A stretch of DNA of 64,000 nucleotides from Pseudorhizobium flavum (GTDB lineage: Bacteria > Pseudomonadota > Alphaproteobacteria > Rhizobiales > Rhizobiaceae): the NCBI RefSeq assembly GCF_902502825.2, contig NZ_LR723670.1, forward strand, positions 3,882,001-3,946,000, read 5' to 3'. The notes under the pieces are model-generated. The model was not told the origin of the DNA, made no database searches, and was given only the letters and a program-made list of their open reading frames with translations. Of this stretch, positions 7,188-39,216 are shown in pieces. A program made the position numbers and the translations under genes. Every line of letters begins with the position of its first letter. Within the stretch, counting starts at the first letter, position 1.

Positions 7188-7862
7188 TCAAGGCTGAAGG
7201 CCTGCCGGCCGCTCGAACCTTGGAAACAGTTTTGTATTTTCGAGATAGAGGTGCATGACCAGATCATCGATCAGCTTACGCACCCCGAGGTAAAGCGAGC
7301 GCCATGAGTTGCAAGCGCCTTCGGGTAGGTTAAGTCCCTGGGTGACGTGCTCGATACCACGAATGTCCAGCGCTTCGGTCTCGCATTCTTGCAACGGCAT
7401 GGGTCCGCGGTCATGCACCGTCGCGCCGTCACTGCCCTGCATCATCGGAAACAGGACCTGCTCCTGCTTGCGCATATGCTGCTCAAGATCATGCTGCAAC
7501 TCCTCCAGTGCTGCGGCAAGCCCTACGGGCGCTTCCGGATGTTGGCCATGAACCCGCTCGACCTTCAGTGCAAGCGGAATTAGCCATGCCAGTTCCGCCC
7601 GATGTGTCTCATGATACCGATCCAGTATATGAGAGATCAGCAAGGCTGTCTCTTCAGGAGCATCCCGGCAAGCCCCGTCGATAAGTGCTTGCAGTTCATC
7701 CCGCAGCGTCTCCAAACGCAGACCGGCCTTTTCAGCTGCCTCCTGCAAAGACTGCTCGCCGCCACAACAGAAGCTGATGCCGTGACGGCGGAATACCTCC
7801 GCAGCCCCTGGAAGGGTGGCCGCGAAAGCAGCTACGGTCTGGTTGGTGTCGATATAGCTCAT
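7188..7862 (-). CDS. dnrN: DnrN/RIC (ScdA/YtfE-type) di-iron protein for repair of Fe-S clusters
   Basis: This 224-residue protein repairs iron-sulfur clusters damaged by NO or oxidative stress. The N-terminal DUF542 module carries the paired cysteines (FCCGG, residues 32-33). The hemerythrin-like domain has His84, His129, Glu134, His172, His204 and Glu208, almost the exact ligand spacing of E. coli YtfE. The ATG at 7862 was chosen because the ScdA family starts there; a much longer in-frame extension runs through the nnrS gap and is not supported. It is last in the nnrS unit and has its own NnrR-type box about 90 bases upstream. Confidence 0.9.
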   Translation of the reverse strand: MSYIDTNQTVAAFAATLPGAAEVFRRHGISFCCGGEQSLQEAAEKAGLRLETLRDELQALIDGACRDAPEETALLISHILDRYHETHRAELAWLIPLALKVERVHGQHPEAPVGLAAALEELQHDLEQHMRKQEQVLFPMMQGSDGATVHDRGPMPLQECETEALDIRGIEHVTQGLNLPEGACNSWRSLYLGVRKLIDDLVMHLYLENTKLFPRFERPAGLQP

Positions 7863-7951
7863 TCCTGGACCCCTGATCTCTTGCAAAGTGCCGGATGGAG
7901 CTTTTCCGATCCGCAGCCCCCCGCTTCTAGGACGGCCGTGGTGTCCTGTCT

Positions 7952-7965
7952 TTGTGGCGACGCAA
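7952..7965. promoter_or_regulatory. NnrR-type (CRP/FNR family) box upstream of dnrN
   Basis: The sequence TTGTGGCGACGCAA is an inverted repeat of the form TTGYG-N4-CRCAA, the consensus known for NnrR, the NO-responsive regulator of alphaproteobacterial denitrifiers. Its centre is 96 bases from the dnrN start. If the site sits at -41.5, transcription starts near 7917 and leaves a normal leader of about 55 bases. Confidence 0.65.
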
Positions 7966-7990
7966 GCATGACGAGGCTGCGCCGAGACCT

Positions 7991-9193
7991 TCAGCCTTCT
8001 CGGGCTAGCAGCAAGAACCTGCCATAGATGAAGGCAAAGGAGAGGAAGGCGACAACCCAAGCGAGGCCCGCAAGCGGCAGAAGCTGCATGGTGTATTGCG
8101 GCCAGATCGCGGCGGCGATGCGCGCGATCGATGCCGTGATGATTGCCACGTAGATGCACACGACGGTGGAGGCAGGAGCGTGCAGCGGCTGGCCGCTGTG
8201 ACCCCGCGTCGCCCTCGTCATCAAGGCCAGCGTCATTGTTCCGATGCCACCCACTGTCCAGGCATGAATGCCTGCGGAACGGAGGCCGGGATCGTCCAGG
8301 AGCTGGGCGGCGCCCGTTAAGACGAAGCCGGCCGGCAAGAATAGGAAGGCTGCGTGAAGGATGGTCACCAGAGGCTCCCGAAGGGTGCGATGCGGTGTCC
8401 AGCGCAACTGGCGGAGGAACTGCAAAATACCTGCCGCAAGACAGAACATGCCGCCGGCCGGCGCCACTGGCTCCCAGATGGGCTCCAGCGTCCATATGCC
8501 AAGAGCCGCGCCCGACAGGAGCATTGCCGCCAGGTCAAAGCTGCCAAAGGGGACGGGGAAGCGCCCCGGGTTGTTCTGCTTCAGCCAATTTCCGGTGAAG
8601 GCAGGAATGATGCGCCCGCCGATCACCGTGATCAGCAGGATGATGGCGCTGATCGCCAGCCTGCCTGACACCTCGCTTCGGCCAAACCGGTTGAACTCGT
8701 AGAAGAAGAAGGCTTGCGCAATCGTAAGCAGACAGAGAACGGCCACGACCTTGTAGTTGCGGATGTTTCGGGCAGTCACAAGTTCGCGCAAAACAAGTAC
8801 AGCGAGCACCGGCAGGAAAAGCCCTGCAATCAGGAAGGTCAGCGAGAGACCGATCTTGTCAGATACGGAAACCGCAAGACGTCCCGCAAACCAGAGCCCG
8901 AAGAGCGCGGCAAGCGCCCAGCCGGAGAGGGGGCGTCTTCCCGTCCAGCTAGGAACGGCCGTCAGCAGGAAGCCGGCGATCACCGCCGGTACATATCCGA
9001 ACAGAAGTTCGTGCTGATGCCATCCGGTTGGGGAGAACTCAGTCGGAATTGCGATGAACCCCAAGAACCAGGGAACCCAGAGTGCGATCATGATGGCGGC
9101 GTGCAGCCCACCGAAGAAAAAGAACGGTCGGAAACCGGCGGAAAAGAGGGTGGCGAGGAATGCCGGATAATGATCTGCGCGGCGGGATGTCAT
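7991..9193 (-). CDS. nnrS: NnrS family membrane protein
   Basis: This 400-residue polytopic protein has about 12 hydrophobic segments. NnrS proteins are heme- and copper-containing inner-membrane proteins that relieve nitrosative stress; their exact reaction is unresolved. Family signatures seen here are FSAGFRPFFFFGG near residue 18, the WHQHELLFGY motif near residue 58, and TRATRGHSGQPL near residue 330, with conserved histidines. It starts one base after the stop of the second NnrS gene, and dnrN follows, so it is part of a co-transcribed NO-response set. Confidence 0.9.
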   Translation of the reverse strand: MTSRRADHYPAFLATLFSAGFRPFFFFGGLHAAIMIALWVPWFLGFIAIPTEFSPTGWHQHELLFGYVPAVIAGFLLTAVPSWTGRRPLSGWALAALFGLWFAGRLAVSVSDKIGLSLTFLIAGLFLPVLAVLVLRELVTARNIRNYKVVAVLCLLTIAQAFFFYEFNRFGRSEVSGRLAISAIILLITVIGGRIIPAFTGNWLKQNNPGRFPVPFGSFDLAAMLLSGAALGIWTLEPIWEPVAPAGGMFCLAAGILQFLRQLRWTPHRTLREPLVTILHAAFLFLPAGFVLTGAAQLLDDPGLRSAGIHAWTVGGIGTMTLALMTRATRGHSGQPLHAPASTVVCIYVAIITASIARIAAAIWPQYTMQLLPLAGLAWVVAFLSFAFIYGRFLLLAREG

Positions 9194-9194
9194 G

Positions 9195-10415
9195 TCAGCA
9201 AGTCTCCTTGTCCAAGGTGTCCGGCGACCAGAGCAGAGGCACGTAAGCCTTGAACCATAGCAGCAACGAAAATGACCAGCAGCAGGCGGCGAGGGTGTGG
9301 CTGCCGCCGGGCAGTTCCATCCAGGGTATGAATTCCGGCAGGATCCGCATCAGAACGGCCACGAACATCGCAGCGATCGCGATGCGGGCCGAAAGGGGGA
9401 AGTGGAGCGGCTGCCCGGTATGAAGAAGCCCCGCGATCGACAGCACCGCCAGGACGCCGATCCCTAGCCCGCCCATCAACATCAGATGCAGCCCGCCGAC
9501 AAAGGAGAGCGGCAGGCCGAGCAATGACAGCCCGCAGACGACAAGTCCCGCGCCGCCCAGACCGCTGGATGCGCCAAGGGCCACGATCTCGGTACGCCAC
9601 ATTTCTCGGCCGATGAAGGCCTCCGCCACACGATCGAGGAATGCGCAGCCGGCGGCAATCATAAGATATCCCCGAACCTCACCGGAGGCACCGGCAAACT
9701 CCGCCAGGAGCAGGAGGCCCACCAGTCCTGCCGCAAGGTTTGCGCGACCAGGATGCGGCCGATAAGGGGAGGTCATCTCGCTCGGGTCGAGGATCAGATT
9801 GGTGACGGGGGTGGTGATACGCGCCAGAGCGAGACCCAAAAGGCCGAGAAAGGCGAAAGCCGTGACCCGGATGGCGCTCTCGCCAAGCTGGAAATCCCCG
9901 CTCAGCATCGCCAGTCGTATGGCGCCAGCGCCGCCGGAAAGGGCGGCGAGGAAGAGGATGAAGCCGGTAAGTCCCATGGTGCGGCGGCGCCAGGACAAAA
10001 AGATCGCATAGCCGATGAGAAGGGCGATCCAGATCTGATCGGCGACCGCGGAGATCACAATGAACGCCTCCGCGCCAAGCATCCCGACGATCCGTCCGAC
10101 GGCCCAGATGCCGGCGAGCAGCAGCAGCGGCCACCCGCGCAGCCGAGGCGTGTCCGTCCATTCAGGAAGCGCAGAGGTCAGGAAGCCGATGAGGGCCGCG
10201 CCAAAGGAGCCGATTATCATCTCCTGAGCATGCCATTGGGCCGGGGAGGTGGTCGTGGCAAACGGCAGGTCGAACCCGTAGCCCACGATCCAGAGGAGCG
10301 GCCACAGGGCTGCGTGAAGAGCGGTTATCGGAAAGAAGAGCCGCAGCCCTTCGCCAGTCATCGCCGCGAGGAGCATCCGGTCCTTTCCACGATCCAGCAT
10401 GGATGACGCGCTCAT
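9195..10415 (-). CDS. Second, divergent NnrS family membrane protein
   Basis: This 406-residue polytopic protein keeps the NnrS landmarks in altered form: GEGLRLFFPITALHAALW near the N-terminus, WHAQEMIIGSFGA instead of WHQHE, and LLHTGQPLHFP near residue 330. The first conserved His pair is thus partly replaced (WHAQE). Its start overlaps the ABC ATPase stop as ATGA, and its stop is one base from the next nnrS, so it is translationally linked to both. A specialised paralogue within an ABC-importer operon is a reasonable inference. Confidence 0.8.
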   Translation of the reverse strand: MSASSMLDRGKDRMLLAAMTGEGLRLFFPITALHAALWPLLWIVGYGFDLPFATTTSPAQWHAQEMIIGSFGAALIGFLTSALPEWTDTPRLRGWPLLLLAGIWAVGRIVGMLGAEAFIVISAVADQIWIALLIGYAIFLSWRRRTMGLTGFILFLAALSGGAGAIRLAMLSGDFQLGESAIRVTAFAFLGLLGLALARITTPVTNLILDPSEMTSPYRPHPGRANLAAGLVGLLLLAEFAGASGEVRGYLMIAAGCAFLDRVAEAFIGREMWRTEIVALGASSGLGGAGLVVCGLSLLGLPLSFVGGLHLMLMGGLGIGVLAVLSIAGLLHTGQPLHFPLSARIAIAAMFVAVLMRILPEFIPWMELPGGSHTLAACCWSFSLLLWFKAYVPLLWSPDTLDKETC

Positions 10416-11164
10416 GCGATACTCCGTTCGTCATAGTCGTTCACATGGGCAAACAGCGGGTCCTCGTTGAGGAAAGCGTGGGCGGTCTCGAAAACCATGC
10501 GATCATCGCGCAGGCCCGGTGAAGACGGCACAGGCCGACTACCCGCGATGCCGCGACCACTGCGATCCATAACGGCGATGCGGTGAGCGACCCGGACGGC
10601 CTCCGACAGATCGTGCGTGATGAAGAGGCCGGAGAGGCTCCTGGCGGCGACCGTCTCGATGACGATGTCCTGCATGCGCCGCTTAAGAGCGACATCCAGA
10701 GCAGAGAAGGGTTCGTCGAAGAAGATGAAGTCCGGTTTTGCGATAAGGGCCCGTGCGATCGCCACCCGTTGCCGCATGCCACCTGATAGCTGCGCGGGAA
10801 ATTTGGCGAGATCGGCGGGATTGAGTGCCGCTTGGGCGGCGGCATCCTCCACGCGTTGGCAACAGGCAGCACATCCGAGGCGGCGTTCGGCGACAAGGCC
10901 GAAGGCAATATTCTCGGCTGCCGTTGCCCAGGGCATCAGACGGGGTTCCTGAAAGATGATGCCATGCCGGAAATAGCGGCGGTTGATCCGGCCCCGACGA
11001 GGGTCGATTAGCCCAGCCGCGATGTGTGCAAGAGTGCTTTTTCCACAGCCGGATGGACCAACGAGCGCCACCAGTTCCCCGGCCGCAATTTCGAGATTGA
11101 TCTCGTCCAGCACGGTCCTTCCGAGAAACGCGTGGCCGATCCCGTTAAGTTGCAGCATTGTCAT
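10412..11164 (-). CDS. ABC transporter ATP-binding protein, nitrate/sulfonate/taurine type
   Basis: This 250-residue ATPase has Walker A GPSGCGKST (about residues 37-45), the signature LSGGMRQR, Walker B FIFFDEP and an H-loop FITHDL. It resembles SsuB/TauB of the NitT/TauT family. The ATG at 11164 overlaps the permease stop (ATGA). A Cys-rich insert (LGCAACCQRVE) between the Q-loop and the signature motif is unusual. It powers the importer formed with the next two genes; the substrate is unknown. Confidence 0.85.
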   Translation of the reverse strand: MTMLQLNGIGHAFLGRTVLDEINLEIAAGELVALVGPSGCGKSTLAHIAAGLIDPRRGRINRRYFRHGIIFQEPRLMPWATAAENIAFGLVAERRLGCAACCQRVEDAAAQAALNPADLAKFPAQLSGGMRQRVAIARALIAKPDFIFFDEPFSALDVALKRRMQDIVIETVAARSLSGLFITHDLSEAVRVAHRIAVMDRSGRGIAGSRPVPSSPGLRDDRMVFETAHAFLNEDPLFAHVNDYDERSIA

Positions 11165-11970
11165 CGCTTCACCCCCCATGGGCGAGCAGCCTCGCGCCAG
11201 GTCTCGGCTTCGGCGCGAAGAGGCTGCAGAAGCCCATACTCGACGGTGATCAGGGCCGCGACGGACAGCAGTATCCAGGCAAGGGCTGCGGCAACATCCA
11301 GATTGGCGCGGGCACTTGCGAGTTCGGTCCCCACGCCCCCCGCATTGGTCAAGAGTTCTGCCATGATGGCGGCCTTGAATGCGGTCCCGAGCGCCATTGT
11401 CAGCGCCGGAAAGAGGGAGTTGAGCATCTGCCGCAGGGCGATGCGAACGACCCGGCGAATCGGCCCCAGCCCGAGCGCCCGCGCCATGTCGTCGAGGCCG
11501 CGATCGCGTCCGGCGATCCCCTCGGCGGCGCCTATGAACACCACCGGAATACCAGCCACCGCCGCCGTTGCGGCAACCGTACCCGCGCCATTGCCGAACC
11601 AGATCATCATGAGCACTATCCACGCGATAGGGGGCACGCCGAGCAACAGGGTGATTTGGGGACGTGCCAACCGCATGACGGCCGGATGGTATCCGGCCAG
11701 CACGCCTGAAACGGTCCCGATTGCCGTCGCCGCCGCAAAGCCCGCGAACGCCCGCAGCGACGTGGCCGCGACCAGTTGCCAGCTTCCCGGATCGGCAAGG
11801 ATCGCGGTCATGCTGGCGAGGGTTTCCGACGGTGCCGGCAGGATGAAGCTGCCATAGGCCTCATGAGCCAGCTGCCATGCGGCGGCAAACACCGAAAGGC
11901 CGGCCATTCCTGCCCAGGCGGACCAGAGGAAGCGGCCGGTTCGGGCAGCCCGATCACCGAGTGCGGACAT
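11161..11970 (-). CDS. ABC transporter permease, NitT/TauT type
   Basis: About 269 residues with six predicted membrane segments and the EAA-loop region near EGIAGRDRGLDDMARALG, where ATPases dock. The LLGVPPIAWIVLMMIWFG segment is typical of the SsuC/TauC permease family. The ATG at 11970 was chosen over an upstream in-frame ATG because the added 55 residues are basic and overlap the binding-protein gene. It is coupled to the ATPase by an ATGA overlap and follows the binding protein by 8 bases. Confidence 0.85.
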   Translation of the reverse strand: MSALGDRAARTGRFLWSAWAGMAGLSVFAAAWQLAHEAYGSFILPAPSETLASMTAILADPGSWQLVAATSLRAFAGFAAATAIGTVSGVLAGYHPAVMRLARPQITLLLGVPPIAWIVLMMIWFGNGAGTVAATAAVAGIPVVFIGAAEGIAGRDRGLDDMARALGLGPIRRVVRIALRQMLNSLFPALTMALGTAFKAAIMAELLTNAGGVGTELASARANLDVAAALAWILLSVAALITVEYGLLQPLRAEAETWREAARPWGVKR

Positions 11971-11978
11971 GGCGACTC

Positions 11979-12998
11979 CTAGAGGTAAAAGCCATCGTCC
12001 GGCATTCGGCCACCGATCATCTTGGGCTGCGTCCGGGCGATGGCCTGGAGCAGGGCGTCGATGGCCGGCCGCGCGTCGTGAGCGCGGGTAGCCACGAGGT
12101 TTGAGAAGGGAATGGACTTCTCGATCACCGGCCATGGAAGCTCCAGTGCGGCGGCCGTATGGCTTGCTGCCTGTGAAGGGCTGGCATTGACCGTCGCAGC
12201 GGCTTTCGAGAGCGCGCCGAGCAAAGGCTCAATCTTGTCGCCATGCTCCTCGATGAATGTTGAGCTGAGGGCAAGACCCGCTTGAGGCATTGATGGCCCC
12301 AGGCCCGTGATCTTGCCCCATTCCGCTTGCATGTCGATCACGCGATGGATCTCCTTGCCGGATGCCGCGGCCTTCACCATGGCAGCGGTTGCCGCTGGCT
12401 CTGGCACCACTGCGGTGTCGATGCGGCCGGACAGCAACATCTGGATAGCCTCTATCGGCGAACCAGCCAAATCCAGTTCGACATCCGTGCCGGCAGACAA
12501 GCCGTTCTTGTCCAGGGCGGCACGGAAGACAAGCTCCGGCGTATCACTCGGAAAGGGAACCGTGATCTTGCGGCCTTTGAGATCTGCGAAGCTGCTGATC
12601 GAAGGATCGGTCGAGATGACGTAGAGCAGGCCGTTGGTCATAACGTTGGCAAGCCTGACCCCGAGCCCGCGGGTGTGGAGGTTGGCAGCGGCGGTTACCG
12701 GCATCACCACTGCCTGCATGTTTCCGGAGGTGAGGCCCGCACGCATCTCGTCCGGTGTCCGCCAGACCTTGAAGGAGACCTTGTCGGCGACTTTGCCTAG
12801 CAGGCCGGCGCCGACGGCATAGGCGAGAATGATGGAGGGGCCGGCCGGTGGGCCGTAAAGCGTGAGTTCGGAAAGGGGTGTGGCCTGCGCGGGCCCGACA
12901 AATGGCAGCGCGAAGGTGGCGGCGAGTCCGGTGCACAAGGTGCGGCGGGGGATTGTTGCGTCGGGGATTGGGATCGATGTCGTGTGATCTGCGGTCAT
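11979..12998 (-). CDS. ABC transporter substrate-binding protein with Tat-like signal
   Basis: This 339-residue protein has an IPRRTLCTGLAATFALPF leader that reads as a twin-arginine signal, which suggests folding with a ligand or cofactor in the cytoplasm or fast folding. The mature part follows the SsuA/THI5-like two-lobed fold (SFADLKGRKITVPFPSDTPE, DTAVVPEPAATAAMV). The PEPAA segment is typical of proteins that bind nitrate, sulfonate, thiamine precursors or small metal complexes. Its genomic place, 32 bases after a TonB receptor and before nnrS genes, suggests a ligand tied to denitrification, such as a copper- or heme-related compound. That last point is inference. Confidence 0.8.
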   Translation of the reverse strand: MTADHTTSIPIPDATIPRRTLCTGLAATFALPFVGPAQATPLSELTLYGPPAGPSIILAYAVGAGLLGKVADKVSFKVWRTPDEMRAGLTSGNMQAVVMPVTAAANLHTRGLGVRLANVMTNGLLYVISTDPSISSFADLKGRKITVPFPSDTPELVFRAALDKNGLSAGTDVELDLAGSPIEAIQMLLSGRIDTAVVPEPAATAAMVKAAASGKEIHRVIDMQAEWGKITGLGPSMPQAGLALSSTFIEEHGDKIEPLLGALSKAAATVNASPSQAASHTAAALELPWPVIEKSIPFSNLVATRAHDARPAIDALLQAIARTQPKMIGGRMPDDGFYL

Positions 12999-13030
12999 CA
13001 GATTGTGCCTTTCTCAGGGAAAATAAGTGT

Positions 13031-15312
13031 TCAGAAGCGGCTCTTGACGCCCAGGTAGAAGCCGCGGCCATCGCCCGGCAGAAAGGCTGTCTGGTCCGCC
13101 CTTGCCTGGTCGACGATGAGGGTGGAGGATGCATAGGTTTCGTCGAAGAGGTTCGTGATCTCTCCGTAGACCGAGACGTTCTCGTTGATGCGGTATTCCG
13201 TTCGGAGGTCGACCACCTCGTAGGGATCCGCCCACAGCGTGTTCATGTTGTCCACGGGTGTACGGTCCGGAACCCATTTCAGGCTTGCCGATAGCAACCA
13301 GTCCTCCGTCAGCTGATAGGAGAGCGTTGCGTTGATGATGTGCCGGGGTGCGCCCGCAAGCCGGTTGTTGCCGCGCACGGGATCGTCGTTGAAGCGGAAG
13401 TCCTGATAGGTATAGGCAAGCCGCCCGACCAGGCGATCCGCCAGTCCGGCGGTCAGGCCGAGTTCCACGCCAAAGTGGGTTGTTTCATCCGCATTGATGG
13501 CACCGAGTGAGGCGCCTGTTGCATCTCTCAGGCTGAGAAGCTCATTCTCCACCCATGAGTAATAGGTGGTCACGTCCCAGCTGACTGGTCCATGGCTCGC
13601 ACGCCAGCCGATTTCCGCCGTCGTGGCGGTCTGGGCGTCGAGGTCGGGAGTGGAGAAGGCTGCAGCCGGCAAAGCCGGGTTGGCCGGGTTCGGCCGGCCG
13701 GGGCTGCTGTTCGGGGTGCCGTTGACCGTCGCCAGCAGGTCGTCATGCGTCGGCGGTTCGAAGCTGCGGCTGACGGCTGCAAAGAGAAGATTGTCCGGTC
13801 CCAGTTCATAGGTGACCCCGAGGCTGGGGCTCCAGGCGCTGTAGCTTCGGTCGTAATCCGTGGGGGTTGCCGGCACGGCTCCGTTGGGCAGGCCGCCGGA
13901 AGGGAGCGCCGGGTTGTAGGCGATCGTCGGACGCGTGGCTCCGGAATAAGTATCGTTACTGTCACGCGTGGCACGGGCGTAGGAGATCGCGGGAGAGATC
14001 GTCCATGCGTCAGCCAAGGGAATGTTGAAGCCTGCATAAAGCGACAGGGTCGAGGCATCGAGATCGTTCTTGCCGAAGAGCGCGCCGCGGTCGCCGGACT
14101 GGTTCAGGTAATAGTGACGGTCTGCAGAGCCGACGGTGTACTGGGCAGTGGCTTCGAAGAGCGGCAGGAGTGCCTTTGCGTCGGGCGAATACGCATATCG
14201 CAGCAGACCGGTGACGTCACCGCCGACGGTTTCGCGGATTCCGGAGGAGATCGGAAAACGGAACGTATCGTCGGTATAGGTATATCCAAGCCCGATATCG
14301 ACCTGATGATCACCGAGATCGAAGGTCGTTCGCGATCCGATCAGCGCCTGGCTCGCATCACGCCGGGGCTGGTCGCGGTTGACGTTGGGGCCGGGATTCA
14401 CGATGCCGCCGGGCGTTACCCTCGGGCCGCTCGATACCTGTGACGGATCGGCCTCCAATGCGGCCTTGTTGATCGGGCCGGCCACATCGAAGCCGAGATC
14501 GGTGTAGCTGAAGAACAGACGGCTCGTGACAATGTCGGAAATCTCCGCCTCGACAACGCCGCCAACCTCGATCCGTTGGGAGTCGTTGTAATCCCGGAAA
14601 CCATCTCGCCGGCTGACGTCTACGTGGAAGGCGGCATCGAAGCGATCACCGTCGAAGCCCGTGCGGGCAGAGGCGTTGCGCTGCCCGAAGCTTCCGACGC
14701 CCACCGTGACTTCCGTCGCCGGAGACGTGACTGCCGGGGGCAACATCAGGTTGATCGCGCCGCCGAGCACCGTTGCCCCCAACCGGTTGGCCAGATGGCC
14801 GCGATAAACCTCCATGATATTTGCCGGGCGGGATTGATGAAACCGGCGATGTAAGATCCATCCGCCCGGTTGATCGGCACCCCGTCGCGCAGCACCAGGA
14901 TTCCACGCTCGACGGGGTTCTGCTGCAGTCCGGACCCGCGGATCTGGATTCGGGGCTGGTCATTGCCGCCGAAGAAGTCCTGCAGGACGACGCCCGGAAC
15001 CCCGGCAAGCGCATCGGAGAGCGTCGGTGCGACAGAGCCTGCATAATCCTGGGAGGAAATGGCTGTCGCGCCGCCCGGAAGCGCGCGCAGACTGGCTTTT
15101 ATGATGCCGAGGGACGCCTCCAGGCCGGCGTCGATCACTATCGTCTCGAGCAGTGTTTCCGCCCCGGGCGCTGCAGACTGAGCCCATGCCAAGTCGCCGG
15201 CACCCGCCGTCGATGCGAGCAAAATCCCGACTACCGTCCGATATCCCCTTCTTCGCCGGCCATCGGCTCCCGTGGCGCGGCGCGCGATCCCCTTGCCCCT
15301 CATGCAAAACAT
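13031..15312 (-). pseudogene. TonB-dependent outer-membrane receptor, interrupted by a single-base frameshift
   Basis: The N-terminal part (start ATG 15312) has a signal peptide and a plug domain (SDALAGVPGVVLQDFFGG, RIQIRGSGLQQNP, ILVLRDGVPIN). The C-terminal part, open down to 13031, is a beta-barrel that ends in the outer-membrane signature (GFYLGVKSRF). The two frames meet near 14826, where adding one base to a G run restores the sequence NPAPANIMEVYRG. The total would be about 760 residues, normal for the family. Whether this is a real mutation, phase variation or a sequence error cannot be told here. It heads the ABC/NnrS/DnrN unit and would import a ligand across the outer membrane for that ABC importer. 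Confidence 0.8.
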
Positions 15313-15317
15313 AAAGC

Positions 15318-15365
15318 GTCCTTCCCCAACTTGTGGTGGCGAAGCCGGGCGTCAGCCGGAAGGAC
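15318..15365 (-). promoter_or_regulatory. Leader hairpin that sequesters the receptor's ribosome site
   Basis: On the minus-strand transcript GTCCTTCC (15365-15358) is perfectly complementary to GGAAGGAC (15325-15318), with a 32-base loop. The second arm contains the Shine-Dalgarno sequence of the TonB receptor, 6-7 bases before its ATG at 15312. The fold would hide the ribosome site, as in translational riboswitches or attenuators. It matches no riboswitch class that I recognise. Confidence 0.4.
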
Positions 15366-15492
15366 GAGAACACCTGTGGCAGGCTGATCTCAGCGTTCCA
15401 GCACGCGCGGCCGCCGACAGATGGGCGGACGAAAATAGATTGGCGACAGGTGATCCATATGGCGGCCCTAGCGTGTTTGGGCTCCCATCTCT

Positions 15493-15506
15493 TTGTGCTA
15501 GCGCAA
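15493..15506. promoter_or_regulatory. NnrR-type box upstream of the TonB receptor operon
   Basis: TTGTGCTAGCGCAA is an inverted repeat of the TTGYG-N4-CRCAA type. It lies about 180 bases before the receptor start. With the site at -41.5, transcription would begin near 15458 and give a leader of about 146 bases that contains the hairpin at 15318-15365. It is the same class of site as those at 7952 and 50307. Confidence 0.65.
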
Positions 15507-15557: not shown

Positions 15558-16526
15558 TTACCGTTGCCGGCCTTTGATAGCTCGCCAGGCAGGCGAGACA
15601 ACGTAGCTGGCAACGGGTATCAGAGCAGCGCCAATCGCCAGCCCCACTATACCGTAGCCGAGGGACTCCACCGCCCACGCAAGCACAGCTGCCGCATTGG
15701 GCACTGCATGCGCAGCTACTTCCGCCCAGTGGTGGATAAACTGCCCTATTCCGGCAAGGCCGAACCCCTCAAGTCCGTGGACGATAATGCCGCCTCCGAC
15801 CCAGATCATGGCGGCGGTGCCCACTACGCTCAGACCGGACATCACCACCGGCATGCCTTTGACCAAGCCACGACCGAAACTCCGAGCAATTCCGTCATTG
15901 TTGGCAGCCAGCAACAGCCCGAAGTCGTCGGCCTTTACGAGCAAGGCGACGACGCCATAGACAGCGAGGGTGATACCGAACGCCACAAGAACCAGAATGA
16001 CAGCCTGAGCGATAAGGCTTTCATTCGGCAGCTCTGCAAGGGCTATGGCCATGATCTCGGCAGAGAGGATAAAGTCTGTCTTGATCGCGCCAGCGACTTT
16101 CTCGTCTTCGAGGGATTTTGGATTAACTGCTGCCGACGCCAGGTGCGTTTCGTGCTCATGCGCCTGGTGTGGAGCCAAGAGGTGATAGACCTTCTCTGCT
16201 CCCTCGTAGCAGAGGTAAGCGCCGCCGATCATCAGCAGCGGCGTGATGGCCCAGGGCAGGAAGTAACCAAGAGCAAGTGCCGCCGGCAGCAGGAACAGGA
16301 GCTTGTTCTTGATCGAGCCCTTGGCGATCTTGAATACGATCGGCAGTTCACGATCGGCGGAAAAGCCTTGGACATAGCGAGGAGTGACGGCGGCGTCGTC
16401 GATGACCGCGCCTGTGGCCTTCATGCCGGCCTTCATTGCCATTCCGGTGACGTCATCAACTGATGCGGCGGCAACTTTCGCAAGACCTGCAACATCGTCC
16501 AAAAGCCCAAGCAACCCGATGCTCAA
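15558..16526 (-). CDS. YedI/DUF808 family inner-membrane protein
   Basis: About 322 residues with the DUF808 layout: the N-terminal SIGLLGLLDDVAGLAKVAA and DDVTGMAMKAGMKA segments, the VVDD/AVTPRYV region and five to seven hydrophobic segments. The function of the family is unknown. Its start is a TTG at 16526, supported by AGGAG 9 bases upstream; the codon overlaps the stop of a small upstream frame. It stands alone and is not obviously linked to the denitrification or FDH genes. Confidence 0.85.
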   Translation of the reverse strand: MSIGLLGLLDDVAGLAKVAAASVDDVTGMAMKAGMKATGAVIDDAAVTPRYVQGFSADRELPIVFKIAKGSIKNKLLFLLPAALALGYFLPWAITPLLMIGGAYLCYEGAEKVYHLLAPHQAHEHETHLASAAVNPKSLEDEKVAGAIKTDFILSAEIMAIALAELPNESLIAQAVILVLVAFGITLAVYGVVALLVKADDFGLLLAANNDGIARSFGRGLVKGMPVVMSGLSVVGTAAMIWVGGGIIVHGLEGFGLAGIGQFIHHWAEVAAHAVPNAAAVLAWAVESLGYGIVGLAIGAALIPVASYVVSPAWRAIKGRQR

Positions 16527-21684: not shown

Positions 21685-22698
21685 TTATTCCGCGGGTTCG
21701 GCAGCGGTCTGTCCCCGCGGCCGGATCGCACCCTTTCGCTGCTGCTCTTCGACCCAGGCGCTGTGATGTTCCTTCGCCCAGTTGAGGTCCACCGCACCGG
21801 AGCCCATCGCCTGATAGGCACCTTCCATGCCCAGTGTGCCGATATAGATGTGGGCGAGGATGACAGCGACCATGATGATGCCGACGATAGCATGCACATA
21901 TTGGGCCCACTGCATGCCGTTGATATCGGTAAAAGCGAACGGAAATAACAAGTATATCCCGGTGAACGACAAAGAGACCCCGCCCAGGACGACCGACCAA
22001 AAGATTAATTTCTGTCCCGTGTTGAAACGGCCTGACGGCAGGTGTCTTCTATTAGTCCGCTCAAAGAAGCCGCCGGCTGATCTTAGCCATGCCGCATCAT
22101 AGCGGTCGGGAAGATTGTGCCGGATCCAGGCCACGAACATCAATACGACGCCCGCCATGAATGCCCAAGAAACGTAGTGATGGGCATACTTGGCCCAGAT
22201 CGACCACGTCGAGAATGCCTCGGGCCCGATCAGCGGCATCAGCAGGCGCCTTCCGAAGATAAGGTTGAGACCCGTGATCGCAAGGACGATGAACGCCGTT
22301 GCAGTTGTCCAGTGCAGCAAGCGCTCCGCGGCGTTGAAACGCACGATCGTTTGTCCGGACGGATGGGTCTTCAGCCGAATGCGGCCCATGGCGAAGTAGT
22401 AAATTCCGATCAGGAGCAGCATGCCGACGATAACAAAGCCGGCCACCCACGGTAATGCAGTCCGCTCGAAGGTCTGATAGTCCCGGCCCTGTGGCTGTTG
22501 AAGCGTCGTCGCCTTGGGATCGGGGATGCTCACGCGGCCCTGGATCTTGCCAAGCTCGTCGAGAAGCTGTTGCTCGCTCAGCTCCTGTCTCTGGCCTGCT
22601 GGCTCTTGCGCCGCCACCGGCTCGATCAATAGGCCACAGCTTACGATCAGCGCGACAACCGTCGGACAAACCAGTTGATAAAGGCTTAGGTTTCGCAT
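21685..22698 (-). CDS. fdoI: Formate dehydrogenase cytochrome b556 (gamma) subunit
   Basis: This 337-residue membrane subunit passes electrons from the FDH Fe-S subunit to quinone. The ATG at 22698 follows GGAGGAGCAA and gives a signal peptide ending near PVAAQ. Four core helices carry the heme ligands, with candidate histidines at 129 (ERLLHW), 173-174 (YAHHYV), 269 (QYVHAI) and 283 (LAHIYI). It has an N-terminal periplasmic extension of about 60 residues. It is the last gene of the FDH operon, 120 bases after the beta subunit. Confidence 0.9.
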   Translation of the reverse strand: MRNLSLYQLVCPTVVALIVSCGLLIEPVAAQEPAGQRQELSEQQLLDELGKIQGRVSIPDPKATTLQQPQGRDYQTFERTALPWVAGFVIVGMLLLIGIYYFAMGRIRLKTHPSGQTIVRFNAAERLLHWTTATAFIVLAITGLNLIFGRRLLMPLIGPEAFSTWSIWAKYAHHYVSWAFMAGVVLMFVAWIRHNLPDRYDAAWLRSAGGFFERTNRRHLPSGRFNTGQKLIFWSVVLGGVSLSFTGIYLLFPFAFTDINGMQWAQYVHAIVGIIMVAVILAHIYIGTLGMEGAYQAMGSGAVDLNWAKEHHSAWVEEQQRKGAIRPRGQTAAEPAE

Positions 22699-22821
22699 TT
22701 GCTCCTCCTCCCAACCTGTCTCGCGCAAGGCGCTCGTCAGCAATCATCGCGCAAGGCAGCGCGCTCACGTCCCCGTCGTCATCGTGCCGTCGCCGGTTGG
22801 CCTCAGCCGACGGCACATGCA

Positions 22822-23418
22822 CTAGACGTCCACGGTCTCACGATATGCGGTGCGCCAGCCCCATGCGCCTGAGCCATAGCCACGCTGGGTAACCCGTTCC
22901 TTGTAGATCGCAGCGATGATCTCGCCGTCACCCGCCAGCAGCGATTTGGTGGAGCACATTTCAGCACACAGGGGTAGTTTACCCTCGGCCAGCCGGTTGG
23001 CTCCATATTTTGCATATTCAATTTCTGTGGAATCGGCCTCCGGCCCTGCCGCACAAAAGGTGCATTTGTCCATCTTGCCACGGGAGCCGAAATTGCCAAC
23101 GCGCGGATATTGCGGCGCGCCGAACGGACAGGCGTAGAAACAGTAGCCGCAGCCAATACACAGATCCTTGGAATGCAGCACCACGGCATCGGCCGTGGTG
23201 TAGAAACAGTCCACAGGACATACGGCCGCGCAGGGGGCGTCGGTACAATGCATACAGGCCATCGACACAGAGCGCTCGCCCGGCTTGCCGTCATTGATGG
23301 TTACGACCCGGCGCCGATTGATGCCCCAGGGAACGTCGTGTTCATTCTTGCATGCGGTGACACAGGCATTGCACTCGATACAGCGTTCGGCGTCGCACAG
23401 GAACTTCATTCGGGCCAT
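22822..23418 (-). CDS. fdhB: Formate dehydrogenase iron-sulfur (beta) subunit
   Basis: This 198-residue protein carries four [4Fe-4S] clusters. Cys motifs are visible at CIECNACVTACKNEHD (near residue 13), MHCTDAPCAAVCP, CIGCGYCFYACPFG and KCTFC with a later LCAEMC. It links the catalytic subunit to cytochrome b. It is shorter than the E. coli FdnH/FdoH protein and lacks the C-terminal membrane anchor helix. It lies 12 bases after the catalytic subunit gene. Confidence 0.92.
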   Translation of the reverse strand: MARMKFLCDAERCIECNACVTACKNEHDVPWGINRRRVVTINDGKPGERSVSMACMHCTDAPCAAVCPVDCFYTTADAVVLHSKDLCIGCGYCFYACPFGAPQYPRVGNFGSRGKMDKCTFCAAGPEADSTEIEYAKYGANRLAEGKLPLCAEMCSTKSLLAGDGEIIAAIYKERVTQRGYGSGAWGWRTAYRETVDV

Positions 23419-23430
23419 TGTTGCTCCTCC

Positions 23431-26352
23431 CTACACCGCAGCGATCTGGCAAAGTGTCACCTTTGGCTCCTGCATCCCGGTCACCGGATCATAGCCATAG
23501 GTGGTAATACTGTTGGCGCTTTCGCCCAGAACGTAGGGGTCCGTCCCTTCCGGGTAATTTGCGCGCATGTCCTCGCCGCGGAACCATCCACCGAAGTGGA
23601 AGGGCATGAATGCAACGCCCTTACCGACACGTTCGGTGACGAGCGCTTTCACCTTTGCCTTGACGTCGTTTTCCGCGCCGTTCACCCAGACCCAGCCGCC
23701 GTCACTGATCCCTCGCTCAGCTGCATCTCCGGGATTGATCTCGACAAACATGTCCTGCTGCAGTTCGGCAAGCCAGCGGTTCGAGCGGGTTTCCTCGCCG
23801 CCGCCCTCGTACTCGACCAGACGCCCCGTCGTCAGGATGATGGGGAAGGTCTTGGCGATCTCCTTGTCGACGGCCGCCTTTTGCACGCTGAACCCGATAT
23901 TGGGTAGGCGGAATTGCTTGGCATCCGGATAGGTTGGGTATTTGGCGACAAGATCCACCCTCGGCGTGTAGATCGGCTCGCGATGGACCGGCACCGGATC
24001 GGGCAAGTTCCAGGCCAGTGCCCTCGCCTTGCCATTCCCATAAGGATGACAGCCATGGCTGAGCACCACGCGTTGAATGCCCCCGGAAAGATCAGTCGAC
24101 CACGACACCTTGCCGATGTCGCCCATGTCCGCACCAATCTCCTCAATGACGCTCATTTCTTCTGGCGTGAGATCTCGATCCCAGCCGAGTTTCTGAAGCA
24201 CCGCCATCGTAAACTCGGGGTAACCATCGGTAAGTTCTGAACCCTCCGTATAGGAGCCCTCTGCAAGCAGCGTCTCACCGTTACGCTCGACGCCGAACCG
24301 TGCCCGGAACGGACTGCCGCCGTCCATGACATGCAGACCGGTGCTATAGAGGTTCGCAGTGCCCGGATGGCGGACCTCGGGTTTGCCCCAGCATGGCCAG
24401 GGAAGGCCGTAATAGTCGCCCCCGACCTCGGGGTCGTCTTTGGGCGCCCGCAAGGTGACGAGGTCAAACTTGTGCTGGTTGCGCATATGCGCTTTGAGAC
24501 GCTCGGGGGACTGGCCACAATAGCCGGTCGACCAGCTGCCACGGTTCATTTCCCGCAATATGTCCTCGGGCACCGGCCGATCACCTTCGACGGCGATATG
24601 CTTAAACATCCATTCCGCAAGACCAAGCTTCTTGGATAACAGGTATAGGACTTGATAATCATCCTTCTGCTCGAAGCTTGGTGGAACGATCTGCTCGCCC
24701 CACTGGAGAGCGCGATTGGAAGCAACCCGTGATCCCGACGTTTCGAACTGCGTGCACACCGGCAAGAGGTAGGTATTATCCTTCCGCCCTGCCTGAACGG
24801 CGAGAGAGGCCCAGGTCGTCGGATGGGGATCGGCCACGACGAGGAGTTCAAGGCCGGCAAGTCCTTTGAGTGACTCTGGAATGCGCGTGATACTGTTGCT
24901 GGCGTGACCCTGGACGAACATGGATCGCATGACGTCCGGCTGCGCGACGTCTTCGGCCGGCAGGGAAACGGAATCGAACCATCGAGTCAGCGGGATGCCG
25001 GGCGTCTCCATCAGCTCCTTTGACGAGAACTGACCCACCAGATCGTCATAGGGAATTTCCCAAACCCGCGCCCAATGCTTCCACGCACCTTCCGTCAGTC
25101 CGTAGTAGAAGGGTAAGGTGACGACATCGAGCCCGATATCGGTGGCGCCTTGCACATTGTCATGCCCGCGGAAAATATTGGCGCCGGTGCCAGGTTTGCC
25201 GATATTGCCGGTTGCCAGACAGAGGATGCAGCTGGCTCGTGTGTTTGCAGTTCCCACGGTGTGGTGTGTCTGGCCCATACACCAGATGATTGTCGACGGC
25301 TTCTGGGTCGCAAATGTTTCGGCAACGCGCTTCAATTGCTCTCCTGGGACGCCCGTGATCCTCTCCACTTCGTCGGGAGTGTATTTCGCAACTTCCTTGC
25401 GGACCTCATCCATCCCGTAAACGCGCTGGGCGATGAATTCCTTGTCCTCCCAGCCATTTTCGAAGATATGCCACAGCATTCCCCAGATCAGCGCAATGTC
25501 AGTGCCGGATCTGAACCGCACATATTCCGTGGCATGGGCAGCCGTGCGCGTGAAGCGGGGGTCCATGACGATGAAATTGGCGTTGTTGAGCTCCTTGCCT
25601 TCAAGCAGATGCTGCATGGCGACGGGATGTGCTTCGGCCGGGTTGCCGCCAAGGACGAGCATTGTTTTTGAGTTTCGGATGTCATTGTACGAATTGGTCA
25701 TTGCGCCATAGCCCCAGGTATTGGCTACCCCGGCGACGGTGGTTGAATGACAGATCCGAGCCTGATGATCCTGATTGTTCGTTCCCCACAGCGCGGCAAG
25801 CTTGCGAAACAGGTAGGTGCCTTCGTTGGAGAACTTTGCCGACCCCATCCAGTAGGTGGATTCGGGGCCGGATTTTTCGCGGATTTCGAGAAGCTTGTCT
25901 CCAATGCCATTGATGGCATCCTCCCAGGATGTCCTTTCCCATTGGCCGTTGACGAGCTTCATCGGGTATTTCAGGCGGCGGTCGCTATGCACCAGCTCGC
26001 GAACACTTGCGCCCTTGGCGCAATGGGAGCCCCGGTTGAAGGGGCTGTCCCATGACGGTTCCTGACCCGTCCACACGCCATTTTGCACCTCAGCTGTTAC
26101 CGTGCATCCGACCGAGCAATGGGTGCATATGCTCTTTTTCAACTCAATCGGCACGCCAGGTTGTGGAGGGCTGATTGCGGACGCTTTTCTGACAGTGCCA
26201 AGCTGGATTGTGCCGAGTGCCGCCACACCGCCGGCGACGAGGCCGGAACGACGTAGGAATGCTCGGCGGTCCAAAGGCGCCGCCGAAATACTGGCGGCCA
26301 GAGATTGAAGTTGCGTGAGGCCTGCTTGTCGATCCTTGCGCTTCGTCAGCAT
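23431..26352 (-). CDS. fdhA: Formate dehydrogenase catalytic (alpha) subunit, Tat-exported, Mo/W-bis-MGD
   Basis: This 973-residue enzyme oxidises formate to CO2 on the periplasmic side. The ATG at 26352 is preceded by GTGAGG. A twin-arginine signal (DRRAFLRRSG, residues 28-37) leads the mature enzyme. The N-terminal [4Fe-4S] ligands are Cys76, Cys79, Cys83 and Cys111. The catalytic residue is Cys201 (QARICHS), replacing selenocysteine. The C-terminal molybdopterin-dinucleotide domain follows (VLTTGRLVEYEGGGEETRSN). The tungstate transporter nearby suggests W rather than Mo may be used, but the sequence cannot decide this. Confidence 0.93.
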   Translation of the reverse strand: MLTKRKDRQAGLTQLQSLAASISAAPLDRRAFLRRSGLVAGGVAALGTIQLGTVRKASAISPPQPGVPIELKKSICTHCSVGCTVTAEVQNGVWTGQEPSWDSPFNRGSHCAKGASVRELVHSDRRLKYPMKLVNGQWERTSWEDAINGIGDKLLEIREKSGPESTYWMGSAKFSNEGTYLFRKLAALWGTNNQDHQARICHSTTVAGVANTWGYGAMTNSYNDIRNSKTMLVLGGNPAEAHPVAMQHLLEGKELNNANFIVMDPRFTRTAAHATEYVRFRSGTDIALIWGMLWHIFENGWEDKEFIAQRVYGMDEVRKEVAKYTPDEVERITGVPGEQLKRVAETFATQKPSTIIWCMGQTHHTVGTANTRASCILCLATGNIGKPGTGANIFRGHDNVQGATDIGLDVVTLPFYYGLTEGAWKHWARVWEIPYDDLVGQFSSKELMETPGIPLTRWFDSVSLPAEDVAQPDVMRSMFVQGHASNSITRIPESLKGLAGLELLVVADPHPTTWASLAVQAGRKDNTYLLPVCTQFETSGSRVASNRALQWGEQIVPPSFEQKDDYQVLYLLSKKLGLAEWMFKHIAVEGDRPVPEDILREMNRGSWSTGYCGQSPERLKAHMRNQHKFDLVTLRAPKDDPEVGGDYYGLPWPCWGKPEVRHPGTANLYSTGLHVMDGGSPFRARFGVERNGETLLAEGSYTEGSELTDGYPEFTMAVLQKLGWDRDLTPEEMSVIEEIGADMGDIGKVSWSTDLSGGIQRVVLSHGCHPYGNGKARALAWNLPDPVPVHREPIYTPRVDLVAKYPTYPDAKQFRLPNIGFSVQKAAVDKEIAKTFPIILTTGRLVEYEGGGEETRSNRWLAELQQDMFVEINPGDAAERGISDGGWVWVNGAENDVKAKVKALVTERVGKGVAFMPFHFGGWFRGEDMRANYPEGTDPYVLGESANSITTYGYDPVTGMQEPKVTLCQIAAV

Positions 26353-26359
26353 GGCAACC

Positions 26360-26569
26360 TCACTTCTGCTGGGGGTAACGATTGACCCGATAGAAAGCCT
26401 TGACGTGGTCGGTTTCCCGATATCGCTCGCCGGCCTCATCCTCACCCGGCTGGTAGGCCTGTGCTTCGCCGGCACCAAGCGTCACTGCGGCGACGACTGT
26501 GCTGGACGCGCCACCAAATGCCCTGAGGAAGCTGCGCCGGCCGAGGGCCACTTGTCGCTCGTCTTGCAT
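26360..26569 (-). CDS. Small Tat-signal protein of formate dehydrogenase operons
   Basis: A 69-residue protein that starts at the ATG at 26569, 4 bases after AGGAAGGAC. Nearly half of it is a twin-arginine leader (LGRRSFLRAFGGASSTVVAA), followed by a short charged tail (RYRETDHVKAFYRVNRYP). Small proteins of this kind recur just before fdhA in proteobacteria and are thought to be exported partners or leader-like subunits; the function is not established. It ends 7 bases before fdhA. Confidence 0.8.
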   Translation of the reverse strand: MQDERQVALGRRSFLRAFGGASSTVVAAVTLGAGEAQAYQPGEDEAGERYRETDHVKAFYRVNRYPQQK

Positions 26570-26606
26570 GTCCTTCCTCCTCCTTCGGCACCCTGCCGGT
26601 TCGCGT

Positions 26607-27281
26607 CTATGCTGTCTGCCGTGCCTCCATGGCAAAGGCGTCGGTTTCAATGTCGATAAACAGGCGCCCCAGCGCCCCGACCGACCGGTAAAATTCGGCC
26701 GCCCCTGCGCGTTCCAGGTCGCTGAAAAAACGTCCTGCCCAAGGCTCCACATGGCGCTCGAAGAAGTCCTGTTCTTCGCTGTCGGATATCGGGAACCGCT
26801 TGCAGGCAAAGCCGCTCATCATTTCGCATAAGCTTGCGAGATGATCTTCCGGTTCGCAATTGCCTTCCGGGCGTTCCAGCCCCAGTCGGGCCATGTCCGC
26901 GCGCAGGCGCGCAAGCGGTCGCTCGTTGAGGAAGCCAGTCAGATAATAGGATGCGTAGGGAAGCAGCTCTCCGCGCCCCACGCCGATAAACAGGTCGCTG
27001 AATTCTCGACAAACCGCTTCCGGTGCGCATGATGCTGCCGCCTGGGCAAGGCGAGAATGCGCACGGCCAATCGGGGTTTCAGGGTTAAAGTGCAGGCGCG
27101 CCAGATTGGCGAGCAGGTCGCTGCTCGGTGGCCTGATCAGAAGGGCAGCGAGCAGCGCATACTCGTCGGCTCGCGCCTGATCAATTTCGTTGACGACAGC
27201 TGCCGCCGGGCCGACACTTGGAGCATTGGCTCCATCGGGTTGTTCCCAAGCCTCAACTAATAGCAAGTCTGGGTTCATCAT
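26607..27281 (-). CDS. TorD/DmsD-family redox enzyme maturation chaperone
   Basis: A 224-residue all-helical protein. The core motif EFSDLFIGVGRGELLPYASYYLTGF matches the E-x-x-x-LF-x-G-x-G-x2-P-x3-S-x-Y pattern of TorD chaperones, and CEPEDHLASLCEMMSGF matches the second conserved helix (EPEDHLA). Such chaperones guard the Tat signal of a molybdoenzyme until its cofactor is loaded. Lying just before the Tat leader gene and fdhA, its client is almost certainly FdhA. Confidence 0.9.
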   Translation of the reverse strand: MMNPDLLLVEAWEQPDGANAPSVGPAAAVVNEIDQARADEYALLAALLIRPPSSDLLANLARLHFNPETPIGRAHSRLAQAAASCAPEAVCREFSDLFIGVGRGELLPYASYYLTGFLNERPLARLRADMARLGLERPEGNCEPEDHLASLCEMMSGFACKRFPISDSEEQDFFERHVEPWAGRFFSDLERAGAAEFYRSVGALGRLFIDIETDAFAMEARQTA

Positions 27282-35747: not shown

Positions 35748-35771
35748 AGAATCCAGTTGGTGAGGCTGTTC

Positions 35772-36461
35772 ATGGTGGAAACCAGCACTGCATGGCACCT
35801 GATTGCGTCCGGCGATGCAACCTTATTTGCAATCGTTGGCCTGTCGCTGCTCGTCAGCCTGTCTGCCGTGGCCGTCGCGGCGATCATCGCCCTGCCGCTT
35901 GGCGCTATGGTCGCGCTTACCAGCTTTCCCGGCCGCACGACAATCGTGGTGGTGCTCAACGGCTTCATGGGGCTGCCACCGGTTGTGGTTGGTCTGACTG
36001 TTTATCTGTTGCTGTCGCGATCCGGACCGCTGGGACAGTTCGGGCTGCTGTTTACGCCAACTGCCATGGTCATCGCGCAGGCCTTGCTGGTCCTGCCGAT
36101 CATTGCTTCGCTCACGCGCCAGACAATCGAGCAGTTGTGGCTCGAATATCGCGAAGAACTCACAGCGATGGGAATCGGCTGGACTGGCCGGGTCGCGACA
36201 CTCTTGTGGGATAGCCGCTTCAATCTGGTCACTGCCCTGCTTGCCGGATTTGGCCGGGCTGCGGCTGAGGTCGGCACAGTGATGATCGTGGGCGGCAATA
36301 TTGATGGCTTCACCCGCACCATGACGACGACGATTGCGCTTGAAACCTCCAAGGGCAATCTCCCCCTGGCGATGGGACTTGGCATCATCCTCATTTTTAT
36401 CATCCTGCTGATCAATGCGGCCGCCTGGTGCATTCGGTTGCGGGCCGAAGGGACCAGCTAG
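35772..36461 (+). CDS. tupB: Tungstate ABC transporter permease TupB
   Basis: About 229 residues with five to six membrane helices. The motif GFGRAAAEVGTVMIVGGNI is the ATPase-docking loop typical of TupB/ModB-like permeases. The ATG at 35772 has GTGAGG 6 bases upstream; in-frame TTG and GTG codons at 35757 and 35760 are less likely. The next gene (tupC) starts directly after its stop. Confidence 0.9.
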   Translation: MVETSTAWHLIASGDATLFAIVGLSLLVSLSAVAVAAIIALPLGAMVALTSFPGRTTIVVVLNGFMGLPPVVVGLTVYLLLSRSGPLGQFGLLFTPTAMVIAQALLVLPIIASLTRQTIEQLWLEYREELTAMGIGWTGRVATLLWDSRFNLVTALLAGFGRAAAEVGTVMIVGGNIDGFTRTMTTTIALETSKGNLPLAMGLGIILIFIILLINAAAWCIRLRAEGTS

Positions 36462-37202
36462 ATGCGTGCTATCTCAAGCGATCTGCCTATCGTCCTCAAT
36501 GGGGTCTCACTGATGGCTGGTGCGACAACAATACTGGACCAGCTGAACCTGACCATCGGCCGGGGTGGGCCAACGCTGATTGTCGGTCCCAATGGTTCGG
36601 GTAAGACTTCGCTGTTGCGGTTGTGCATGGGCTTGGCCCACCCCGCGCGGGGCCGGGTGAGTTGGGGAGGGCGGACGGATGGCGGACCTGGACGGCGCGC
36701 ATTCCTGTTCCAGAAACCGGTCATGCTGCGACGCTCGGCTGCCGCGAATGTTGCCTACGGGCTTGCGCGTGCCGGCCACCCGAGCGGCTTGCGCCACAGT
36801 CGCGTGCTGGAGTTGCTCGAGACCGTCGGCCTGAGCGAACTTGCGCTGCGGCCCGCGCGCCGCTTGTCGGGTGGCGAACAGCAACGATTGGCACTTGCAC
36901 GTGCCTTGGCGCGCCAGCCCGAAATCCTTCTGCTCGACGAACCAACGGCCAGCCTCGATCCGGCGGCGACCCGCGTGGTCGAGGACATAATTCATGCCAG
37001 CGTTCAATCGGGGACCAAGGTGATCATGACAACGCATGATCTGGGCCAGGTGCGCCGGCTGGCGTCGGACGTGGTCTTTCTCGTTCGCGGGCGTGTTTGC
37101 GAGCATGCCGGCGTAGCCGATTTTTTCGACCGACCCCTAACGCCCCAGGCCGGAGCCTTTGTCCGCGGCGACCTTGTCCTTGATCAACAAGACGGAGATT
37201 GA
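36462..37202 (+). CDS. tupC: Tungstate ABC transporter ATPase TupC
   Basis: This 246-residue ATPase has Walker A GPNGSGKTS, signature LSGGEQQR, Walker B ILLLDEP and H-loop MTTHDLGQVRRLA. It drives the importer with TupB and TupA. It starts immediately after the tupB stop and ends 2 bases before tupA, consistent with an operon in the order tupB-tupC-tupA rather than the usual tupABC. Confidence 0.9.
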   Translation: MRAISSDLPIVLNGVSLMAGATTILDQLNLTIGRGGPTLIVGPNGSGKTSLLRLCMGLAHPARGRVSWGGRTDGGPGRRAFLFQKPVMLRRSAAANVAYGLARAGHPSGLRHSRVLELLETVGLSELALRPARRLSGGEQQRLALARALARQPEILLLDEPTASLDPAATRVVEDIIHASVQSGTKVIMTTHDLGQVRRLASDVVFLVRGRVCEHAGVADFFDRPLTPQAGAFVRGDLVLDQQDGD

Positions 37203-37204
37203 CA

Positions 37205-39208: not shown

Positions 39209-39216
39209 GCCCTCCA

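Follow-up and report, generated by a model that had tools for sequence, protein, structure and literature searches.

An ABC importer paired with a distinct NnrS subclass, beside a RIC-type gene, in Pseudorhizobium flavum

To our knowledge, NnrS has been regarded for two decades as a protein of the nitric oxide (NO) response without a settled biochemical function. Two papers describe it as a membrane protein containing heme and copper (PMC4417242, PMC10256816), and two further sources bear on its regulation: in Bradyrhizobium, FixK2 directly targets nnrS (PMC6710368), and the alpha-proteobacterial NnrR consensus ctTTGcgnnnncgCAAag was derived from the regions of the nir, nor, nos and nnrS genes (Rodionov 2005, PMC1274295). 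Here we analyzed a stretch of 64,000 nucleotides from Pseudorhizobium flavum (contig NZ_LR723670.1, positions 3,882,001 to 3,946,000; hereafter the window), in which genes for a TonB-dependent receptor, an ATP-binding cassette (ABC) importer, two NnrS proteins and a RIC-type protein lie side by side. Comparison with related loci revealed that the importer and a distinct NnrS subclass, termed NnrS-A, form the conserved unit, which the receptor and the second NnrS frequently join, while RIC is a neighbouring gene. Thus known families occur in a fixed combination with an NnrS subclass of its own, and as far as the literature shows this association appears to be undescribed; neither an importer-NnrS operon nor an oxidase-like fold of NnrS was found described in the accessible parts of the literature, which cover few subscription journals and leave the absence unproven.

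The features of the locus are as follows (window coordinates):

15493..15506, minus strand: NnrR/FNR-type palindrome (minus-strand sequence TTGCGCTAGCACAA), 180 bases upstream of the receptor ATG
14746..15312, minus strand: TonB-dependent receptor, first piece (N-terminal region and plug, 188 codons); PF07715, 43.7 bits
13031..14815, minus strand: TonB-dependent receptor, second piece (barrel, 594 codons); PF00593, 161 bits
11979..12998, minus strand: NitT/TauT-like periplasmic substrate-binding protein with twin-arginine signal; PF13379/PF09084 (NMT1/NitT type)
11161..11970, minus strand: ABC permease; PF00528, 75.9 bits
10412..11164, minus strand: ABC ATPase; PF00005, 100.7 bits; start codon from sequence
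9195..10415, minus strand: NnrS-A, importer-linked NnrS subclass; PF05940, 214.1 bits (cut-off 28)
7991..9193, minus strand: NnrS-B, canonical-type NnrS; PF05940, 345.4 bits (cut-off 28)
7952..7965, minus strand: NnrR/FNR-type box before RIC, TTGYG-N4-CRCAA
7188..7862, minus strand: RIC/YtfE-type iron-sulfur cluster repair di-iron protein; ScdA_N and hemerythrin domains

An earlier sequence-only reading of this stretch had proposed a same-strand set of receptor, binding protein, permease, ATPase, two NnrS and a RIC-type gene, and domain matches bear out this content. Re-reading the sequence also reproduced its junctions, namely gaps of 32 bases between receptor and binding protein, 8 bases between binding protein and permease and 1 base between NnrS-A and NnrS-B, together with ATGA overlaps at the permease/ATPase and ATPase/NnrS-A borders; only the gap between NnrS-B and RIC is wider (128 bases). 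The claim that seven genes run unbroken holds for order and strand but not for the receptor, whose plug and barrel pieces overlap and lie in different frames, so that it is not one open gene. The module is present in one copy in this genome, with the receptor broken.

For comparison, 87 loci were assembled: the window, six annotated plasmid records and 80 loci (the best 80 of 123 confirmed) from a genome scan queried with the binding protein only. Of these, 78 reach more than 6.5 kb downstream, the other 9 being shorter. An ATPase and at least one NnrS follow downstream in all 78, two NnrS in 46, and the permease was counted in 77, being present in the remaining locus (L025) outside the counting limit. 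The ATPase stop and the NnrS-A start overlap by four bases in 57 of the 80 loci measured, are 2 bases apart in 17 and 19 bases apart in one, while five show no NnrS-A start within the limits; the proposed tie between importer and NnrS is thereby corroborated. To judge by record titles, most carriers belong to the alpha-proteobacteria (rhizobia, Azospirillum, Paracoccus, Hyphomicrobium and others), along with two Burkholderiales metagenome-assembled genomes (MAGs) and one MAG named Arenimonas (L030), whose locus resembles those of rhizobia and perhaps reflects a binning error. Many loci adjoin nor, NnrU, hemerythrin, nap or pseudoazurin genes. In rhizobial nor-linked loci such as L027 the operon lies between nor, hemerythrin and NnrU genes on one side and UbiX, UbiD, SCP2, two U32 peptidases and RIC on the other, an island which is nearly unchanged across many rhizobial loci. 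The arrangement is not absent from other denitrifiers, although its exact seven-gene order was found only in the window.

In a tree of 155 NnrS a single clade (81 members, support 1.0) is made up of the sequences encoded immediately after the ATPase. All 81 members carry H62, E65, H221, H310 and H332, and H221 occurs in only 2 of the 74 NnrS outside the clade. Conversely, histidine at NnrS-B position 280 is found in 70/74 other NnrS and in 0/81 NnrS-A, and a cysteine within the last four residues characterizes 60/81 NnrS-A against 0/74 others. NnrS-B of the window carries all of H59, H61, H280, H310 and H332, the canonical conserved histidines, which we read from the alignment as a putative defining set of the family; the NnrS-A clade retains three of these five histidines throughout (81/81) and the H61 equivalent in 38/81, the equivalent of H280 being absent from all 81. 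NnrS-A is predicted to span the membrane with 12 helices and to adopt a heme-copper oxidase/NO reductase fold. Within residues 170-245 no column has histidine in most sequences of both NnrS groups, the counts for NnrS-A versus the others being 25/81 vs 2/74 at position 183, 81/81 vs 2/74 at 221 (in a loop) and 17/81 vs 0/74 at 226. Sequence comparison of NnrS with solved structures gave no match at E up to 1.

The NnrS set of the tree was chosen through the importer, and genome samples served as a check. Among 249 genomes from the order of G004 (L038) the binding protein matched at E <1e-60 in 18, three of them with more than 400 bits, and NnrS-A (E <1e-60) was found in exactly these three, beside the importer; G004 had been picked as a carrier beforehand, leaving an unselected count of 2/248. 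In a 289-genome class sample, any NnrS occurs in 77 genomes and the binding protein in four, two of which (G004 and G168) exceed 400 bits, and in both of these NnrS-A stands beside the binding-protein gene. For the class-sample matches L087 and L088 no importer or NnrS partner was found and no ligand clue emerged. Five divergent class-sample NnrS not placed behind an importer ATPase all fall outside the NnrS-A clade. In both samples the counts are small. Furthermore, a more divergent NnrS (PF05940) lies directly behind the ATPase in two sister importers (L118:4466-5686, 211 bits; L125:9455-10669, 201 bits); therefore the importer-NnrS pairing may predate NnrS-A.

Concerning the border of the unit, RIC has to be considered separately. 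Its ScdA_N (72.1 bits) and hemerythrin (58.8 bits) domains both score over the cut-off, while it stays below the equivalog cut-offs of TIGR03652 (189.3 vs 204.7) and YtfE (207.2 vs 254) and, at 95.6 bits, does not reach the cut-off of 300 of the short-DnrN model. The gene formerly read as dnrN is thus of the RIC type by both Pfam domains, yet with the long YtfE/ScdA architecture instead of the short DnrN one. Altogether 14 RIC genes were located in the 87 loci, window included, and TTG-N8-CAA precedes 13 of them, in its strict form in 11 of the 13; these boxes lie 84-103 bases before the match start, the RIC of L009 being the one without a box. In 13 relatives RIC is 2.3-4.8 kb away from the nearest cluster gene, and only in the window does it follow NnrS at 128 bases. 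The single seven-gene operon of the sequence-only reading was rejected on account of the box of its own that RIC has in the 128-base gap and of its distance in relatives; RIC is probably a neighbouring, separate transcription unit. Sigma-70 promoters and terminators were no commoner than in shuffled sequence, and no near-identical plasmid DNA spanning the locus was found.

The strict motif TTGYG-N4-CRCAA occurs three times in the window against 0.34 expected, a number reached in 0/100 shuffles, while the looser TTG-N8-CAA is no commoner than chance there (17 vs 13.9). The boxes announced before receptor and RIC are both present; the third one (50307-50320) is flanked by a glutamate dehydrogenase gene and a short DUF6522 gene, the latter adjoining a hemerythrin gene. 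The 14 bases of the receptor box recur in Neorhizobium xiangyangii (L008), where they lie 2,507 bases upstream of the match to the binding protein, compared with 2,508 in the window. Counted over the 87 loci from 350 bases upstream to 40 bases inside the first gene, TTG-N8-CAA precedes the first gene in 57, against 9.7% of length-matched random stretches from these loci, and the strict form in 11, against 1.4%, whereby the loci are related and the counts not independent. This pattern fits control by the CRP/FNR family, and NnrR in particular may be the regulator that binds these boxes.

The binding protein of the window is identical to a database entry named Pseudorhizobium flavum. For the importer, R18 and R19 of the twin-arginine signal are invariant in 52/52 binding proteins, suggesting export by this route. 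In the mature part of the same 52 sequences no histidine, cysteine or methionine is fully invariant, although 51 of them retain Met94 and Met120. Binding protein, permease and ATPase score below the cut-off of every NCBIfam row listed (for the ATPase, 25 of 186 rows), and against the named SsuA, TauA and SaoX families the binding protein reaches at best 53.3 bits, compared with 163.5 required for the SsuA family. Its closest solved relatives with a named ligand mostly hold organic molecules or oxyanions, with 3un6 named with zinc; 3hn0 ranks first, and the solved relatives as a whole do not discriminate the ligand. The receptor was surveyed in the 84 loci with sufficient upstream DNA, and a member of the window family was detected in 44, window included (identity 40.7-100%, median 60.5%), situated before the binding protein, between permease and ATPase (Azospirillum) or on the opposite strand. 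The proposed connection of the TonB family with importer and NnrS therefore stands as a frequent partnership. Plug and barrel are both present in 119 of the best 120 of 723 homologues, the closest of these 120 being 95% identical over the barrel piece.

Taken together, we hold it moderately probable that the locus comprises two adjacent units under FNR/NnrR-type boxes, an importer-NnrS operon and RIC, which would give rise to two transcripts. The first would be a conserved import operon of receptor, binding protein, permease, ATPase, NnrS-A and then canonical NnrS, switched on by a CRP/FNR-family activator at low oxygen in the presence of NO or nitrite. The receptor would carry a scarce small organic ligand across the outer membrane, and the binding protein, exported by its twin-arginine signal, would pass it to the ABC importer; we infer that this ligand is an organic cofactor or nutrient and not a bare metal or heme. 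NnrS-A, located in the same membrane, may be a heme protein with the cytochrome-oxidase/NO-reductase fold, its helices 2 and 10 enclosing a heme site of the low-spin type, potentially depending on ligand uptake or protecting it. In the second unit RIC would mend iron-sulfur clusters damaged by NO.

Several observations weigh against this reading. As read, the receptor gene is broken, which may reflect a real break or a sequencing error; at this locus the receptor may not be made. Moreover, 40/84 loci lack a receptor in the DNA covered, and it is therefore a frequent but dispensable neighbour. The strict box was found in only 11/87 loci (14/87 with the binding-protein start also taken into account), and 30/87 lack even TTG-N8-CAA before the first gene. 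Profile-profile comparison of NnrS with NorB by hhalign revealed no significant relation (probabilities of 1.1% and 0.2%), the NorB alignment being shallow. Two of seven carrier genomes (G004, G168) show no match to nirK, cytochrome d1 or cNorB, and in the 289-genome class sample 0 of the 4 binding-protein genomes are among the 7 with cNorB. Among the seven carriers, cNorB was found in three, nirK in two and cytochrome d1 (nirS or relatives) in two; five have at least one of these, and a strict link to denitrification is weakened by the other two. Finally, the sister binding proteins share many conserved residues and yet adjoin [FeFe]-hydrogenase-like genes; therefore a connection between the ligand and NO is not required. 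A divergent gene pair stands beside sister importers in 8 of the 14 sister loci examined (L114, L115, L117, L119-L122 and L127), and the only pair read, that of L120, resembles an [FeFe] hydrogenase and a glutamate-synthase-type flavoprotein.

A rival explanation is that the operon encodes a nutrient importer of anaerobiosis or microoxia under a general FNR/FixK activator, NnrS riding along as an anaerobic membrane heme protein and NO being incidental. Mixed-core TTG-N8-CAA boxes dominate over the strict NnrR type (57 vs 11), two of the seven carriers showed none of the denitrification genes named above, the sister importers adjoin hydrogenase-like genes, and U32, SCP2, UbiD and UbiX genes, which we take to be anaerobic ubiquinone genes, adjoin the importer in many rhizobial loci. 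As nnrS is reported under FixK2 in Bradyrhizobium (PMC6710368), control of the FNR kind that does not involve NO is a serious alternative. However, no NnrS-A without importer was observed in the trees and genome samples, and many loci have nor, NnrU, nap or pseudoazurin genes as neighbours. We judge this explanation somewhat unlikely.

A wider reading can also be formulated, which we put forward only as an unlikely proposal. In it, NnrS proteins would be offshoots of the oxidase/NO-reductase fold that kept a low-spin heme site without the usual second metal site, and NnrS-A would be an integral, NO- or redox-sensing partner of one importer family, through which the importer runs or is kept running. 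The ligand would be a cofactor needed when NO attacks iron-sulfur or heme enzymes, and the sister importer would feed the same kind of ligand to [FeFe]-hydrogenase-like enzymes.

Acquisition of copper or heme for the metal centres of NnrS, NirK and NosZ appears quite improbable. It would agree with the description of NnrS as a heme- and copper-containing protein in PMC4417242 and PMC10256816, with the frequent presence of a TonB receptor, with the heme-uptake genes and metal P-type ATPase flanking the Cereibacter azotoformans locus and with the near-invariance of Met94 and Met120. Opposed to this are the lack of any fully invariant histidine, cysteine or methionine in the mature binding protein, the mostly organic or oxyanionic ligands of its solved relatives (3un6 with zinc apart) and the receptor scores: the barrel piece reaches 35 bits against a copper-receptor cut-off of 472 and 85 bits against a heme-receptor cut-off of 317. 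It is likewise far below the equivalog or subfamily cut-offs for B12 and pyrroloquinoline quinone (PQQ) receptors, and three full-length relatives (L002, L003 and the second receptor of L004) also fail, so that a copper, heme, B12 or PQQ receptor was rejected by family score. The copper- or heme-linked ligand of the sequence-only reading accordingly finds little support. PQQ or a PQQ-like quinone cofactor as ligand appears very improbable.

Elsewhere in the window, several further genes were recorded. Directly upstream of the receptor, on the same strand, lies a DUF808 membrane-protein gene (15558-16526). A Cu-oxidase-domain gene (41711-42883), which we read as nirK, belongs to a region (41711-50258) also containing plastocyanin/azurin-family, COX1/FixO/FixP, DUF2189, hemerythrin and DUF6522 genes. 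A molybdopterin oxidoreductase cluster with iron-sulfur, cytochrome b561 and NarJ-like genes (21685-27281) looks formate-dehydrogenase-like to us. At 35757-41166 a PBP_like_2 binding protein and what look like its transporter partners are accompanied by two MoeA-domain genes, one of them fused to a PBP-like domain; as a guess, this transporter might serve tungstate. A Mutator-family (IS256-like) transposase is located at 54966-56162.

The fixed set of an importer and its own version of NnrS is spread over many nitrogen-cycling soil and water bacteria. An importer-bound subclass and a predicted NO-reductase/oxidase fold provide two handles on the function of NnrS, and the ligand, if identified, would show what many denitrifying bacteria scavenge while making NO and nitrous oxide.

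With respect to described systems, the importer resembles the NitT/TauT type (SsuABC, TauABC, NrtABCD, SaoXPA) in the families of its binding protein, permease and ATPase, the binding protein having the fold of SsuA, TauA, CmpA, NrtA and PqqT; unlike these importers, it has invariant motifs of its own and a fixed NnrS partner. RIC shares ScdA_N and hemerythrin domains with the RIC/YtfE proteins but remains under the RIC, YtfE, ScdA and DnrN equivalog cut-offs. A TTGCG-N4-CGCAA-like site, as in the NnrR regulon, is present upstream at 15493-15506 and at 7952-7965, while in the main text of the regulon study (PMC1274295) the words 'ABC' and 'TonB' occur 0 times, so that neither importers nor receptors appear there under these names. 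Compared with the heme-copper oxidase superfamily (cbb3 CcoN, NorB), NnrS-A has the predicted 12-helix oxidase/NO-reductase fold, but no histidine column that could form the CuB/FeB site of helices 6-7 is common to the two NnrS groups. Within the NnrS family (PF05940) both window proteins score far over the cut-off, and NnrS-A shares H62, E65, H310 and H332 with canonical NnrS; it differs in forming a separate clade tied to the importer, in carrying H221, in the absence of the H280 equivalent and in a frequent C-terminal cysteine.
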